Shown: piece by piece, positions 13,595 through 30,223 of the stretch | How positions within the stretch are numbered: position 1 is the first letter of the stretch | Layout: the number at the start of each line of letters is the position of its first letter | Assembly: GCF_000746095.1 (NCBI RefSeq) | Contig: NZ_JQKP01000001.1 | Coordinates: forward strand, 186,001 to 250,000 | DNA: 64,000 bases | Direction: 5' to 3' | Source of the DNA: Ferriphaselus sp. R-1 | GTDB taxonomy: Bacteria; Pseudomonadota; Gammaproteobacteria; Burkholderiales; Gallionellaceae | The notes under the pieces: model-generated | Database searches by the model: none | What the model saw: the letters and a program-made list of their open reading frames with translations, nothing else | Told to the model about the DNA's origin: nothing | Position numbers and translations under genes: made by a program

Positions 13595-14566
13595 TCAGAA
13601 GCGCTGGGTGATACCCAGCGTCGCGCCCAGATTGCTGGTGAGTTGCGTGCCGGTCACGTTCTGATAGACCGGGACCTGGAGCAGGGCGTAGATGCGCGTG
13701 TCCGGCGCGGCGGCGATGCTGATGCCGGGGCTGAGCGCCAGCGTCTGGCCGCCGGTGTTGGCCGGCACCCCGGCCTGACCACCTTCACTGCCGCTGATAT
13801 GCAGGTTGGCTTGGGCGGTCAGCGCCACTTCATGCGTCAGCGGATAGGCCAGCCCGGTCGCCAGCGCGACACTGTAGCCCGGCTTGTAGCTGCCGGTCGC
13901 AGTGCCGTTATCGCCCGCCGTATTGAGCGCCTGTTGCGCGGTGGCGCTGGCGAACCAGCGCAGCCCGCCGTCGGGAGGACTGCTGTTGTAGCTCAGGCCG
14001 AGGATGCCGTCGGTGGTGCCGGTGCCCGGCTGGAACATGCGTTCAGCGGCGGTCAGGCCATCGACGGCCATCTGGTTGGTCTTGCCGGTAGGCAGTTTCA
14101 CCCCGACTCGCACCGTGAAACCGTTGGGAGACTCGCCGCCCAGGCGGTAGCTGGCCAGCAGCTTCACATCACCCAGCGTAGTGAAATCCCAAGTGTCCGG
14201 TGCGCCGGGCGTGGCGGAGCCGTGCTGGTGGTAGCGCTTCAGCATTGGCGCTTCGATCTCGGCCTGCCATTGCGGGCTGAAGGTATAGCCCAGGTTCGCC
14301 ACGAAATTCTGGTTGGTGGTGGTGATCTCGTCACCGGCGGCTGCCGTGGCTACCGTGAAGTTCGGCAGCTTGCCGGTGCCGCTGCGCAGCTGGTCGCTCT
14401 TGATGTACTCGTAACGCAGGCCGAAGGTGAAGCCCTCGCGCACATTGCTGCCCTGCGCATCCCAGCCGGTATCGGCCAGACAGAAACCTGCACCGCAGGC
14501 CAGCGCCTGCCCCGAAGCCAAAGCAGCGCTCAGCGCCAGAGCCAACGTCGTGTGTTTTGTGTTCAT
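13595..14566 (-). CDS. Outer-membrane beta-barrel protein, possible channel
   Basis: This 323-residue protein has a signal peptide (cleavage near ALA-CGAG) and many short amphipathic strands. It ends in a C-terminal phenylalanine (GITQRF), as beta-barrels inserted by the BAM machinery do. Segments such as VRVGVKLPTGKTN and GTGTTDGILGLSY resemble the MetA-pathway/transporter-like barrel family (PF13557 type), but I cannot name a substrate. It lies after mshG on the same strand. A long perfect inverted repeat stands between them, so it is probably transcribed separately. AGGGAGATAAC before the ATG provides a ribosome site. Confidence 0.7.
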   Translation of the reverse strand: MNTKHTTLALALSAALASGQALACGAGFCLADTGWDAQGSNVREGFTFGLRYEYIKSDQLRSGTGKLPNFTVATAAAGDEITTTNQNFVANLGYTFSPQWQAEIEAPMLKRYHQHGSATPGAPDTWDFTTLGDVKLLASYRLGGESPNGFTVRVGVKLPTGKTNQMAVDGLTAAERMFQPGTGTTDGILGLSYNSSPPDGGLRWFASATAQQALNTAGDNGTATGSYKPGYSVALATGLAYPLTHEVALTAQANLHISGSEGGQAGVPANTGGQTLALSPGISIAAAPDTRIYALLQVPVYQNVTGTQLTSNLGATLGITQRF

Positions 14567-14614: not shown

Positions 14615-14647
14615 GCCGGGGGTGCGACAAAATGTCGCACCCCCGGC
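14615..14647. repeat. Perfect 15-base inverted repeat, terminator or operator
   Basis: Arms 14615-14629 and 14633-14647 are exact complements with an AAA spacer. The core is TGCGACA-AAA-TGTCGCA. The repeat lies after the mshG stop and ahead of the beta-barrel gene. There is no T-tract on either side, so it is not a standard intrinsic terminator. The same 7-3-7 core occurs, slightly degenerate, at 26793-26809 and 28915-28931, which favours a protein-binding site. Confidence 0.6.
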
Positions 14648-26067: not shown

Positions 26068-26670
26068 TTACATGCCGGATGCAGAGCAGCCAGTAGTGAC
26101 AGCCTCAATCTTTGGCTCAATAACGGTTTGATTAGTGCCATTCATAGGAGTCGAGAGGGAAGCATTGGTGTATTTCACATAGCAGGCCGACGCATTCATG
26201 CCAGTACCAACAGAAGCTGGAGTCCAAACTGTTTGACCTGCAACAATCGAAACTGGCGTACCATAAGTCGTCATACCCATGGTGCTGGTACCGAATGTCG
26301 CTGGCCCTTCCAATACATTCCAATCACTTGTAGCTACTGCTGTAACGGGCATCATACCGCCAGTACCTGATACTTGGTTCAACCCGGCGATCAGACCGGC
26401 AGATGGGCCATCAGGGTTGTGGGCGGACCAAGAGATGGGGCCAATGCCGTCAAAAATTGCAGGCATCTGATTGGTGGCCAGCATCTTGGCGTGAGCCATG
26501 GTGGCAGCGCTGGCCAGATTAGCCTTAGCACCATTCACGGCAGTAGCACGGGCTTCAGCTTGCAGGCCGAAGAACTTGGGCATGGCGATGGAAGCCAGGA
26601 TGCCGAGGACCACGATCACGGCGACCAGTTCGATCAGGGTGAAACCCTGTTGTTTGCGTTGCATTTGCAT
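26068..26670 (-). CDS. mshA: MshA, major MSHA pilin
   Basis: The start is ATG 26670 (MQMQRKQQG), preceded by AGGAG eight bases upstream. The 200-residue prepilin has the signal QQG-FTLIELVAVIVVLGILA with the conserved Glu5. The pattern GLQAEARATAVNGAKANLAS follows, typical of MSHA major pilins. Two cysteines (ACYVKY and TTGCSAS) near the C-terminus fit the usual disulfide loop. The gene is visibly richer in A and T than its neighbours, as expected for a variable surface subunit. It is first in the msh run; the strong ribosome site fits high expression. Confidence 0.92.
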   Translation of the reverse strand: MQMQRKQQGFTLIELVAVIVVLGILASIAMPKFFGLQAEARATAVNGAKANLASAATMAHAKMLATNQMPAIFDGIGPISWSAHNPDGPSAGLIAGLNQVSGTGGMMPVTAVATSDWNVLEGPATFGTSTMGMTTYGTPVSIVAGQTVWTPASVGTGMNASACYVKYTNASLSTPMNGTNQTVIEPKIEAVTTGCSASGM

Positions 26671-26792
26671 TGTTGCGCTCCTGATTTGTTTTGGATGGTT
26701 ATTGCTGTTCCGCATGTAAGTACCCCTTGCATGAGAACTGCCCTCAAGTTGTTAGGCGGGCGCAGTGTAAGAAAACTTGTTACGCCTGGGAA

Positions 26793-26809
26793 TGTGACAT
26801 ATTGTCGCA
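26793..26809. promoter_or_regulatory. 7-3-7 palindromic motif upstream of mshA
   Basis: TGTGACA-TAT-TGTCGCA, one mismatch from a perfect inverted repeat, lies about 125 bases upstream of the mshA start. It has the same half-site and spacing as the sites at 14624-14639 and 28915-28931. That distance suits an upstream activator site. A loose GG-N10-GC sequence nearer mshA is not a convincing sigma-54 promoter. The binding protein is unknown. Confidence 0.45.
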
Positions 26810-26908: not shown

Positions 26909-28702
26909 CTACTTGCCTTTTGCCTGTTGCTGTTCACGCGCGGCGTATTCCTGTTTGGCGTAGGCCAGCAGCGGGCCGAGGTGTTCCGGGTCTTGCAATA
27001 CCAGCCAGGGCATGGCTTGCCGGACGGCATCAAAGCGATGTGGATGGGCCCAGATGGCGCGCTGCATCATGGCTTGGGCTTCTGCGCTGCGACCTTGTAC
27101 GGCGAGCAACACGGCGACGCGGTAGCCCAGGGTATCGACCGGGGCGTAGCGCAGGGCGGGTTCGCTGTAGTGCAATCGAACGGCGGGGTCGTTGATGCCG
27201 AACGGGGCGGACGAGGCCATGAACAGGTCGGCATAGGGACGCATCAGCAGGTCGGCATCCAAGATTTTCATGGCGGCTTCGACGCGCTGCTCGTATTCCT
27301 CGGGGTGACCTTCGATTTTGGGTGCGGAAAGTCGCACCAGATGGGCGTTGGCGCGGTAGAGCTGGCCGAGTTCCCAGCCGCCACCGAGCAGGATCAGCGC
27401 CATCAGCGGCGCGCCTAACCGCGCGAGGTCGAAACGCAGGGTGTGGCTCTCCAGCAGGCCCAGGGTGATGGCGGCGATGCCGAGGAAATAGGCGTACCAC
27501 AGGGGATATTCCAGCAGGGAGTGGATGCCCAGCACCAGCAGCAGGCCGTAGCCCCAGCCGTGTTCCAGCGTGGTGGCGGTGCTGCGCTGGCCGCGATACC
27601 ACAGCGCTACGGCGAGCACGAGCAGGACGAGCCCCGCCAGCCCGGTCTCGGCGGCCAGTTGCATCACCAGATTGTGGGCGTTGCTGCCCATGACATCCGG
27701 AATGGGGTTGCGCAGCTCGGCGCTGTGCAGGAAGTGCTGCCAGGCGAACTGGCCGAAACCCGCGCCCAGCCAGGGCGATTGCGCGAACACCAGCGCGGCC
27801 TCGTGCCACAGATAGAGGCGCTGGGCATATCCGCCGAGGTTGCTCATCTTCTCCAGCGGCGACACATCCCCCGCAGCGGCGAACCAGGGCAGGTGCGCCA
27901 CGCCGTGCATCAGCACGAAGGCGGGCAGCAGCCACCCGGCATAGCGGAACAGAGGGCGCAGCGCCTCGTCGCGCCGTTGCCAGACGTAGCTCGCGGCGGC
28001 GAAGGCGGCGAGGTAGAGCCAGCCGCTGCGCGAGCCGCTCAGTACCATGGCGTACAGCAGCGGGGCGGCCAACAGGCCGGTCAGCCCGGCACGCAGGCTG
28101 CCACGGGCGTACAGCAATCCCAGCGAAACCAGCCCGAGGGCGAGGTAATCGCTCAGTGAATTGGCCTGACCCAGATTGCCGTTGATGATGGTGCGCTCAG
28201 CCTGTGTCCACAGCACGAAGTGGTTGAGGGGCGTGTCCCAGCGGAAGTTTTGCAGGATGGCGCTCAGCGCCTGTAGCTCGGCCCCCGCCAGCAGGAAGGC
28301 GGCGAGGGTGGCGGCCAGCAGCGGCAGGCCGAACGCGATGCGCAACTGCCTCCCCAGCAGGATGAGCAGGATGGCCCACAGCAGGTAGAGCGCGACGGTC
28401 AGCGCATGTCCGGCGTAAGGGATCAGGCCGAGCTGAAGCTGCCAAAGCACGAGCAGGATCAGCCCGGCGGGGAGCAGGGTGATGGCGGGCAACTCCTGCG
28501 TGCGCCAGCTTTGCGGCGACAGCAACGGGAGCAGCGCGGCCAGCCCGAGCGCAAAGGCATCCCACTCGGGGTAGAACGTGGCTCTGGGCAGCAGGTGGCG
28601 GAAATCAAGGCCGGGCACGACCCACATCAGGCCGACGCACAGCAGGCCGAGGTAGCGCAGGGAGGAAAGTGGTGTCAGGGAGTGGAGGCGTTGGATGTTC
28701 AC
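26909..28702 (-). CDS. PglL/PilO-type O-oligosaccharyltransferase, probable pilin glycosylation ligase
   Basis: This 597-residue protein has about 12 membrane helices in its first 440 residues and a soluble C-terminal domain. The Wzy/PglL-family patterns are visible: NGNLGQANSLSDYLALGL in a periplasmic loop, SGSRSGWL, and GSNAHNLVMQLAAETGL with its key histidine. A later HSLLEYPLWYAYFLG is typical of the PglL C-terminal region. Enzymes of this type move a lipid-linked glycan to pilins. It lies just downstream of the mshA promoter region, transcribed toward it on the same strand, so pilin modification is the natural inference. The start codon is GTG with no strong ribosome site. A WaaL-type O-antigen ligase role is the alternative. 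Confidence 0.82.
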   Translation of the reverse strand: MNIQRLHSLTPLSSLRYLGLLCVGLMWVVPGLDFRHLLPRATFYPEWDAFALGLAALLPLLSPQSWRTQELPAITLLPAGLILLVLWQLQLGLIPYAGHALTVALYLLWAILLILLGRQLRIAFGLPLLAATLAAFLLAGAELQALSAILQNFRWDTPLNHFVLWTQAERTIINGNLGQANSLSDYLALGLVSLGLLYARGSLRAGLTGLLAAPLLYAMVLSGSRSGWLYLAAFAAASYVWQRRDEALRPLFRYAGWLLPAFVLMHGVAHLPWFAAAGDVSPLEKMSNLGGYAQRLYLWHEAALVFAQSPWLGAGFGQFAWQHFLHSAELRNPIPDVMGSNAHNLVMQLAAETGLAGLVLLVLAVALWYRGQRSTATTLEHGWGYGLLLVLGIHSLLEYPLWYAYFLGIAAITLGLLESHTLRFDLARLGAPLMALILLGGGWELGQLYRANAHLVRLSAPKIEGHPEEYEQRVEAAMKILDADLLMRPYADLFMASSAPFGINDPAVRLHYSEPALRYAPVDTLGYRVAVLLAVQGRSAEAQAMMQRAIWAHPHRFDAVRQAMPWLVLQDPEHLGPLLAYAKQEYAAREQQQAKGK

Positions 28703-28740
28703 GTTCGTCGAAGGCTTGGATCTGGCCGGTTGCGGTTAGG

Positions 28741-28877
28741 GTGCTTCAGCGTCCGCCCCCCGGTGGTAACGGACGCTTGGGCACGGTACAACGAGCTACA
28801 GGAGAGACCCGCAGACGGTAGCAATTCAAGCAGAGGAGTTTGGGAGGAGACTACTGAAACCATCCACCGTCTGCGGG
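28741..28877. ncRNA. Candidate structured RNA or leader between tesA and the PglL-like gene
   Basis: Two strong stems stand in a 248-base gene-free stretch. Stem 1 pairs 28741-28755 with 28770-28784, 15 positions with one mismatch and two G-U pairs on the plus strand. Stem 2 pairs 28808-28819 with 28866-28877, 12 perfect pairs. A smaller GGAGTTT/AAAC-CA-TCC stem can form inside stem 2. I do not recognise an Rfam class. It could be a minus-strand leader of the ligase gene or an independent plus-strand RNA. Confidence 0.4.
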
Positions 28878-28891
28878 GTGAGCGAACTATA

Positions 28892-28906
28892 CGGGCGTAG
28901 CGCCCG
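28892..28906 (-). terminator. Weak hairpin after tesA
   Basis: CGGGCG-TAG-CGCCCG forms a six-base-pair hairpin about 45 bases after the tesA stop, followed on the minus strand by TATAGTT. The T-tract is poor, so termination would be weak. It could be part of the adjacent structured region. Confidence 0.3.
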
Positions 28907-28914
28907 CTTGGGAA

Positions 28915-28931
28915 TGCGGCATTTTGTCGCA
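28915..28931. promoter_or_regulatory. 7-3-7 palindromic motif between tesA and the PglL-like gene
   Basis: TGCGGCA-TTT-TGTCGCA is one mismatch from a perfect inverted repeat. It has the same half-sites and 3-base spacing as at 14624-14639 and 26793-26809. It stands about 210 bases upstream of the ligase start. The regulator is unknown. Confidence 0.45.
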
Positions 28932-28950
28932 TCTGCGCAGGCCGGGCGGA

Positions 28951-29532
28951 TCAGGGCAGCGCGGGCGACACATTGCGCACTATCTGCGCCTGTGCGGCGA
29001 CACCGGGATGCAGGTCGTCAGCCTGAAACTGCTCCGGCGGTATGTGCGCCAACAGGAAGGGAACCAGCGCGGTGCGGTAGCGCTGAGCCAGTTTGGGGTA
29101 GAGTGCGCGGAAATCCCGGGTATAGTCCGCGCCGTAGTTCGGCGGCAGTTGCATACCCAGCAGCACGACCCTGGCTTGGGCGTGTTGTGAGCGGCGGATG
29201 AGTTCGGCCAAATCGTGTTCGATGTCGGGGACCGGGCGGCCACGCAATCCGTCGTTCGCGCCCAGTTCCAGCAGTACGAGGTCGGGGCGATGCTGGCGCA
29301 GTGCGGCATCCAGCCGCCGCAATCCGCCCGCTGCGGTCTCGCCGCTGATGCTGGCGTTGACCACCTTGAGGTCCGGGCGTGCGCGTTGCAACAACGCCAC
29401 CCAGCCCTGTTCGCGCGGGATGCCGTAGGCGGCGGAAAGACTGTCGCCAAACACGAGGATGGTTTGCGCGGTGCCGAGCGTGGGCAGGCACGCGGCGAGT
29501 AACAGTAGCAACTTGATGATGGAGCGTTTCAT
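28951..29532 (-). CDS. tesA: TesA-like GDSL esterase/thioesterase
   Basis: This is a periplasmic SGNH/GDSL hydrolase related to E. coli TesA (acyl-CoA thioesterase I/arylesterase). The 193-residue protein has a signal peptide (cleavage near GTA-QTIL). Four blocks are visible: catalytic Ser in FGDSLSAAYG, Gly in GETAAGG, Asn in GANDGLRG, and the Asp/His pair in DDLHPG. The start ATG at 29532 overlaps, on the opposite strand, the start ATG of the ybbA-like gene. The tesA/ybbA/ybbP neighbourhood matches E. coli. Confidence 0.92.
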   Translation of the reverse strand: MKRSIIKLLLLLAACLPTLGTAQTILVFGDSLSAAYGIPREQGWVALLQRARPDLKVVNASISGETAAGGLRRLDAALRQHRPDLVLLELGANDGLRGRPVPDIEHDLAELIRRSQHAQARVVLLGMQLPPNYGADYTRDFRALYPKLAQRYRTALVPFLLAHIPPEQFQADDLHPGVAAQAQIVRNVSPALP

Positions 29533-30223
29533 GGCGGCGATTGTGCGGGCAGACGATCTGGGCAAGCAAGTGGAAAGTGGCGGCCAGCCGCTGGTGATCC
29601 TGGAGGCGATCAGCTTCGGTGTGGAGGCGGGCGAGAGTCTGGCCATCCTCGGTGCGTCCGGCTCCGGCAAGTCCACCTTGCTGGGTTTGCTGGCCGGGCT
29701 GGATGTCCCGAGCAGCGGTACGGTGAAGCTGGATGGCGTGGACATCTTCGCCTGCGATGAAGACGCGCGCGCCCGCTTGCGCGGCAGACTGGCCGGTTTC
29801 GTGTTCCAGTCGTTCCAGCTTTTGCCCGCCCTGACTGCGCTGGAGAACGTGATGCTACCGCTGGAACTGCGCGGCCAGCGCGATGCCCGCCAGCAAGCCG
29901 AAGCCGTGTTGATTCGCGTCGGCTTGGGTCACCGCCTGCATCATCTGCCCAAACACCTGTCCGGCGGCGAACAGCAACGCGTCGCCATCGCCCGCGCCTT
30001 CGTCGTCCAGCCCAAGATCCTGTTCGCCGACGAACCCACCGGCAACCTTGATGCCAGCACAGGCCGCCAGATCATCGAACTGTTGCTGGAACTGAACCGT
30101 GCCCAAGGCACCACGCTCATTCTCGTCACCCACGACGAAGCACTGGCGGCGAGATGCGGCAGGCAACTACGGCTGGAAGCCGGGCGGGCGGTTTCCCCTC
30201 GCCCGTTTACGGGAGAGGGGTAG
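29531..30223 (+). CDS. ybbA: YbbA-like ABC transporter ATP-binding protein
   Basis: This is an ATPase of the LolD/MacB-type family that partners the permease encoded just downstream. Walker A is GASGSGKST, the Q-loop FVFQSFQLLP, the signature LSGGEQQR and Walker B ILFADEPTGNLD, all intact. The start 29531 is chosen for GGAG six bases upstream; ATGs at 29516 and 29519 are alternatives. The last nine residues (SPRPFTGEG) are encoded by a repeat element, so the native C-terminus has been replaced or extended. The protein is 230 residues. The E. coli pair YbbAP has no firmly settled substrate. Confidence 0.92.
   Translation: MAAIVRADDLGKQVESGGQPLVILEAISFGVEAGESLAILGASGSGKSTLLGLLAGLDVPSSGTVKLDGVDIFACDEDARARLRGRLAGFVFQSFQLLPALTALENVMLPLELRGQRDARQQAEAVLIRVGLGHRLHHLPKHLSGGEQQRVAIARAFVVQPKILFADEPTGNLDASTGRQIIELLLELNRAQGTTLILVTHDEALAARCGRQLRLEAGRAVSPRPFTGEG

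Follow-up and report, generated by a model that had tools for sequence, protein, structure and literature searches.

A putative family of RegA-linked small RNAs with an anti-Shine-Dalgarno loop in Gallionellaceae

Does the short gap upstream of a glycan ligase gene, in which two stems can be drawn, give rise to a structured RNA and, if so, from which strand and in what role? We addressed this question in a 64-kb stretch of DNA (hereafter the window) from a genome of 2.44 Mb (G000). The gap comprises 248 bases (28703-28950) and separates a TesA-like GDSL esterase gene upstream (28951..29532, minus strand; end approximate, start codon picked by eye within ORF 28951-29745) from an O-antigen-ligase/Wzy_C-type gene downstream (26909..28702, minus strand). 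Sequence comparison places the relatives of the ligase in Gallionellaceae and other Nitrosomonadales; G000 holds a second, 43% identical ligase paralogue (L100, contig C10, 34157-35887).

Two stems and a predicted promoter in the gap

Both stems named in the original prediction were recovered by an inverted-repeat search. The first closes hairpin 1 (28808..28877, minus strand), the predicted 5'-terminal element, whose 12-nt arms (28808-28819/28866-28877) are 100% complementary at a separation of 46 nt and whose 12 perfect pairs are extended by inner stems. Its apical loop, UCUCCUCCCAAACUCCU (28834..28850, minus strand), comprises 17 single-stranded nt that are unpaired in both the MFE and the centroid structure and include an anti-Shine-Dalgarno motif. 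The second, hairpin 2 (28741..28784, minus strand), occurs only in G000 and its congener G001 and has 15-nt arms (28741-28755/28770-28784) that are 80% complementary and 14 nt apart. Hairpin 1 folds unusually well, beating all 200 shuffles on either strand (z -5.7 minus, -4.8 plus); hairpin 2 is less unusual (z -2.9 minus, -1.7 plus). Such stems had been considered rare by chance, which overstates the case: dinucleotide shuffles of the window contain on average 1.1 perfect inverted repeats of 12 nt whose loop does not exceed 60 nt (20 shuffles, maximum 7), and the actual window contains five overlapping matches at two places, the hairpin 1 stem and a dyad at 14623.

A promoter scan of 451 bases revealed a sole promoter-like site, TTCCCA-17-TATAGT on the minus strand, with 0.1 expected in shuffles. 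Its -10-like hexamer TATAGT (28886..28891, minus strand) is separated by a 17-bp spacer from the -35-like hexamer TTCCCA (28909..28914, minus strand), which is conserved in homologues and adjoins a 17-bp dyad, TGCGGCA-TTT-TGTCGCA (28915..28931; minus strand TGCGACA-AAA-TGCCGCA), a predicted RegA-family binding site. The predicted RNA spans 28739..28880 on the minus strand, its start placed from the -10 box to within a few nt and its 3' end from where conservation ends.

Two further dyads lie in the window. One, with one mismatch (26793..26809), precedes an MSHA-like pilin gene (26068-26715) and is accompanied by TTCCCA-17-TACACT on the minus strand, which suggests redox control of MSHA-like pili. 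The other, a perfect dyad (14623..14639), precedes an outer-membrane-barrel-like gene (13595-14566). It sits within a 33-bp palindrome (14615-14647), the window's only other place with 12-bp perfect arms at short distance.

Dyad-anchored hairpins across Gallionellaceae

G001 retains the stretch from the dyad through the end of hairpin 2, where similarity stops. Identity between the two genomes is 82.3% over 28739-28931, 77.9% in the esterase gene and 71.5% in the ligase gene; hairpin 1 alone is 77.6% identical, with two pairs of its closing stem changed on both sides, and hairpin 2 alone 95.7%. In addition, the RNA unit occurs three times in G001, as a tandem pair in front of the ligase (L002) and singly in front of a cytochrome c gene (L016). 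Hairpin 2 (L002 1502-1547) is kept without a T run, though the flanking genes are only 72-78% identical, and the linker preceding it contains a conserved TCTCCTGTAG.

A two-sequence covariance model of both hairpins (R1), run against 150 family genomes, detected only G000 and G001 and nothing in the other 148; across 60 ligase loci of other bacteria it gave two weak matches (E 0.013 and 0.5), which we regard as chance. Best short matches in other genomes fell nearly all over the dyad. The dyad motif, TGCGRCAWWWTGYCGCAYYC, is present in 109 of 150 family genomes, its reversed control in 0 of the genomes listed, and when restricted to the TTC side it has 90 sites, spread over 69 of 158 genomes. 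Few genomes beyond the family carry it: across the order the count is 20 of 399, and this takes in family members. On the TTC side, dyads are followed by a -35-like TTCC element and a -10 box at fixed spacing, with TANNNT at offset 22-25 in 57 of 82 TTC-side sites versus 24 of 96 other-side sites.

Anchoring on this promoter dyad uncovered a family of hairpins. An inverted repeat with a score of at least 25, starting 33-39 nt past the dyad, was found at 22 of 82 non-redundant TTC-side sites; the opposite side of the dyad gave none among 96, and dinucleotide shuffling gave 3 among 656. Such a hairpin is lacking at 60 of the 82 sites. At a score of 30 the corresponding counts were 11/82, 0/96 and 0/656, and an earlier, smaller dyad set gave 14/67, 0/73 and 5/402. 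Sites that agreed in 50 or more of their first 60 bases were treated as near-identical and thinned before counting, which removed L140 and L149 among others and reduced the TTC side from 89 to 82 and the other side from 103 to 96. Sites with less than 150 nt of sequence remaining were skipped, and L116, with its arm at offset 43, falls outside the 22. All but one of the 82 sites (81/82) are from Gallionellaceae; L014 (identical to L235), from another family of the order (G059), has no hairpin. Dyads of the order outside Gallionellaceae (18 loci, 22 site entries including repeats) reached a best hairpin score of 19.5, and none was family-like. Counting weaker cases and near-duplicates, we tallied about 30 dyad-hairpin loci in 29 genomes and six genera, with at most three per genome (G001), compared to the two genomes of 150 found by R1, indicating that sequence search misses the RNA family.

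Stem sequences are unrelated between groups while pairing is kept. Each of the first eight pairs is represented by 4 to 6 standard pair types among 29 members; the arms were picked by complementarity, for which the dyad-offset test serves as the control. In the similarity-based alignment A3, 40 of 40 cells are paired and 3 of 10 pairs are changed on both sides, so that A3 surpasses most shuffles: on four of the five measures 15 of 500 reach it, and on the fifth, pair types, 249 do. The similarity-based alignment A2 has 47 of 48 cells paired, and its covariation alone does not exceed shuffles, 76 to 444 of 500 of which reach it, depending on the measure. A whole-family MAFFT alignment aligned the loop motif and left the 3' arms unaligned, and an arm-only alignment (A4) slipped register and was excluded from pair counts. 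As judged from sequence, the 12-pair stem is real by comparison, not by rarity. No known riboswitch had been recognised in the gap, and an Rfam search returned no matching family; together with the conserved promoter position and the helices kept through sequence change, this supports the earlier proposal of a possible new structured RNA.

The dyad may link this family to the RegB/RegA system. Plus-strand bases 28916-28930 (GCGGCATTTTGTCGC) agree with the B. japonicum RegR consensus GNGRCRTTNNGNCGC quoted in PMC5506826. The same paper describes RegA-family consensus sequences as degenerate and dissimilar, and reports that a RegA motif could not be predicted in Acidithiobacillus ferrooxidans; the Gallionellaceae dyad is far sharper than these published motifs. 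A literature search for the dyad string and for RegA motif papers yielded nothing useful. The genome encodes RegA (NF033791 match at 2.3e-61, below the NCBI equivalog cut-off), and regB was recognised as a homologue of the L005 kinase, itself a match to NF033792 at 2.5e-66 and likewise below the NCBI equivalog cut-off; the RegA-family gene is positioned after regB. A regA gene lies within 2.5 kb of 19 of 90 TTC-side dyads, with 0.17 expected, and the dyad is present in 105 of 137 genomes with RegA versus 4 of 13 without (p 0.001), a comparison confounded by genome completeness and kinship. Genes behind dyads also encode PCu(A)C, TonB receptors, cytochrome c and an SCO1-like protein.

G000 and G001 both carry a one-mismatch dyad between regB and the PCu(A)C gene, around which the two genes diverge (L024/L173; G000 contig C2, about 209637). 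The regB-PCu(A)C gap houses a predicted sRNA in other genera (L005) and none in this genus. In L213 (G076) a dyad-hairpin unit is followed, after about 400 nt, by a gene for a RegA-like response regulator (PF00072 and PF02954).

Strand and independence of the predicted transcript

We assign the RNA to the minus strand on three grounds, namely promoter, T-rich tails and retention of G-U pairs, all of which speak against the separate plus-strand RNA considered originally. By our own tally, the closing helix retains 9 G-U and 0 A-C cells in A2 and A3 combined. T content over the 12 nt past the stem is 4.9 versus 2.4, and four consecutive T follow the stem in 6 of 22 cases versus 2 of 96, a partial tail signal; for some family members the stem probably doubles as a terminator. 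The stem in the window runs into TCTCTCC, with no T run, and a terminator search at the stems and in the gap found no strong terminator of the intrinsic type, with a GC stem followed by a T run. The window copy has either lost a T-rich tail or never had one.

Most likely, the dyad-hairpin unit is an independent gene, since it is followed by different genes, several of them convergent. After the hairpin comes the ligase in the window, PCu(A)C in several loci, cytochrome c in L016, FIST in L115 and a TonB receptor in L197 and L214 (L197 by likeness to L214), and a GNAT gene is also among those preceded by the unit. Convergent genes follow it in L003 (TonB receptor), L146 (pseudouridine synthase), and L010 and L227 (aspartyl protease). 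In L005, inspection by eye showed a strong terminator between the RNA and PCu(A)C.

It had also been suggested that the RNA could be a leader of the ligase gene, which, because both flanking genes lie on the minus strand, could only be a minus-strand RNA. In this reading, RegA would drive a transcript in which the hairpin acts in cis as a 5' leader or attenuator of the glycan ligase, by partial termination or by translational control. Such a role is possible in this genus, because the ligase lies downstream and on the same strand in both genomes, the only ones where a ligase ortholog was seen; in the wider family the unit is not tied to one downstream gene. The ligase ORF starts about 105 nt past the 3' arm in the window, G001 has its tandem second copy about 32 nt before the ligase start, and the gap without a strong terminator is consistent with a leader. 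However, elsewhere the unit precedes unrelated genes and convergent ones, the latter of which it could not lead; in G001 the ligase lies farther off, behind that second unit, and the spacer from copy 1 to the ligase is not conserved; and the loop pairs weakly with the ligase start region (-4.3 kcal/mol). We therefore consider a cis-acting leader unlikely, if the best of the alternatives to an independent, trans-acting small RNA.

A proposed trans-acting small RNA and its relation to known systems

The loop points to how an independent RNA might act. A CU-rich anti-Shine-Dalgarno motif occurs in 15 of the 22 family hairpin loops, with 0.2 expected from shuffled loops, and elsewhere in 4 of 54 dyad sites without a hairpin (score below 20) and 4 of 96 on the other side. 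The motif comprises four forms, of which CCCCTCCT was added after inspection; an earlier pattern flags 11 of the same 22. As written, it is absent from 7 of 22 hairpins. Taken together, we find it rather probable that these hairpins represent a new family of RegA-linked, trans-acting sRNAs, transcribed here from the minus strand, that block ribosome-binding sites. The family likely spans the iron-oxidising Gallionellaceae and appears to be switched by an oxygen- or redox-sensing regulator.

In the proposed mechanism, the RegA/PrrA/ActR-type response regulator encoded in the genome would bind the dyad, so that RegB/RegA sets the RNA level by redox state. A transcript would arise from the sigma-70-like promoter directly downstream of the dyad and open, within a few nt, with the long hairpin, which changes in sequence but stays paired and whose unpaired loop presents the CU-rich anti-Shine-Dalgarno. 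The loop would pair with the Shine-Dalgarno of target mRNAs and so block translation. The 5'-terminal stem may protect the RNA, and in many relatives a T-rich tail would then end the transcript; in this genus it probably runs on through the conserved linker and hairpin 2.

Candidate targets were examined in G000 and G001. The PCu(A)C ribosome site pairs with the G000 loop at -26.4 kcal/mol, which passes the 1% point of -24.6 for random stretches of the window; this comparison favours PCu(A)C, as its stretches were 90 nt long and those of the null 60 nt. In G001 the value was -19.2, not past the 5% point of -20.1 of a null built with the G000 loop, and by eye this pairing is weak in those genomes that have PCu(A)C behind the RNA. 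Other candidates fell within or near the upper range of the null. Sites of the form GGAGGAGA-N2-9-ATG number 11 in G000 and 10 in G001, compared to 3 and 1 for the reversed control, and most are not clear gene starts. Candidates (names assigned by eye) are a CusB-like and a TusA-like gene in G000 and a 31-aa ORF that G000 and G001 both conserve just ahead of a cytochrome b561-like gene. This ORF (MSIVATVSAIGTVVIAVGFALFMVKETLSSK in G000) lies at L254 and L259, about 1501-1610, with a GGAGGAGA ribosome site.

The search of these two genomes thus gave no convincing set and no target conserved across genomes, which would fit a real RegA-linked RNA whose CU-rich loop binds a protein or sponges another sRNA instead of acting on ribosome sites, as would those members whose loop is CU-rich without an exact anti-Shine-Dalgarno. 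Against this, the most conserved unpaired stretch is the anti-Shine-Dalgarno string, and on the sense strand only (0/22 loops contain the reverse complement), and we judge protein binding or sponging to be improbable. Least credible, and in our estimation highly improbable, is that no RNA is made. The stems would then be chance, would mark where transcription of the TesA-like gene ends or would belong to a DNA repeat. In favour of this, perfect 12-bp inverted repeats are not rare in 64 kb; against it, the offset from the dyad is fixed in many genomes, the element has a single copy in its own genome and no match in plasmids, and the hairpin 2 string is absent from viral contigs. On the last three grounds a repeat or mobile element was rejected. 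A short coding RNA was also rejected, as by eye the open frame over the window hairpin meets a stop past the TCCTCC stretch in G001.

Returning to the trans-acting sRNA, a more far-reaching picture can be drawn tentatively, at somewhat less than even confidence: fast-evolving RegA-controlled sRNAs with shifting loci and 0-3 copies per genome, in which only promoter geometry and the anti-Shine-Dalgarno loop are kept, might provide the post-transcriptional level of control over redox and copper respiration, widened in this genus to type IV pili and surface glycans. If true, RegB/RegA, a central redox switch, would have an sRNA arm in iron oxidisers, and the sharp RegA-type motif would make its regulon predictable in Gallionellaceae. 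We found no publication on sRNAs of Gallionella or Gallionellaceae in the open-access literature.

Among known systems, the RegB/RegA regulon (PrrB/PrrA, ActS/ActR, RegS/RegR) is matched here by the presence of both genes and by dyads before regB, PCu(A)C and SCO1-like genes. PcrZ, which acts alongside PrrA and is controlled by it, is likewise an sRNA in the PrrA/RegA redox network, of a different class of bacteria, and is likened to the present RNA by network alone. It is named as an sRNA of Rhodobacter sphaeroides in PMC4263372. 6S RNA (RF00013) is likewise long, hairpin-rich and of similar length; it has no Rfam match here, and the genome's own 6S RNA lies at G000:C2:24233-24411 (68 bits).

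The nearest analogue is provided by the alphaproteobacterial ar14 or 'cuckoo' RNAs, NfeR1 of Sinorhizobium meliloti and CcsR of Rhodobacter, the latter presumably belonging to this group. Rfam CcsR1 (RF02791) was rejected, its best match reaching 17.3 bits against a gathering threshold of 65.3 and lying at 28970-29029 instead. As described in PMC10746234, ar14 RNAs conserve a CU-rich anti-Shine-Dalgarno motif in unpaired regions while their stems are highly divergent, and NfeR1 is linked to the two-component system NtrBC. Diverging stems with a retained anti-Shine-Dalgarno motif are equally found in the Gallionellaceae RNA. In contrast to ar14, which has three hairpins, each with CCUCCUCCC, the Gallionellaceae RNA has one motif-bearing hairpin, and hairpin 2 is without the motif; the window loop carries UCUCCUCCC instead of CCUCCUCCC and lies behind a RegA-type dyad. 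With one hairpin, a different motif and no Rfam match, it is not an ar14 member, and represents a new family of a known kind.
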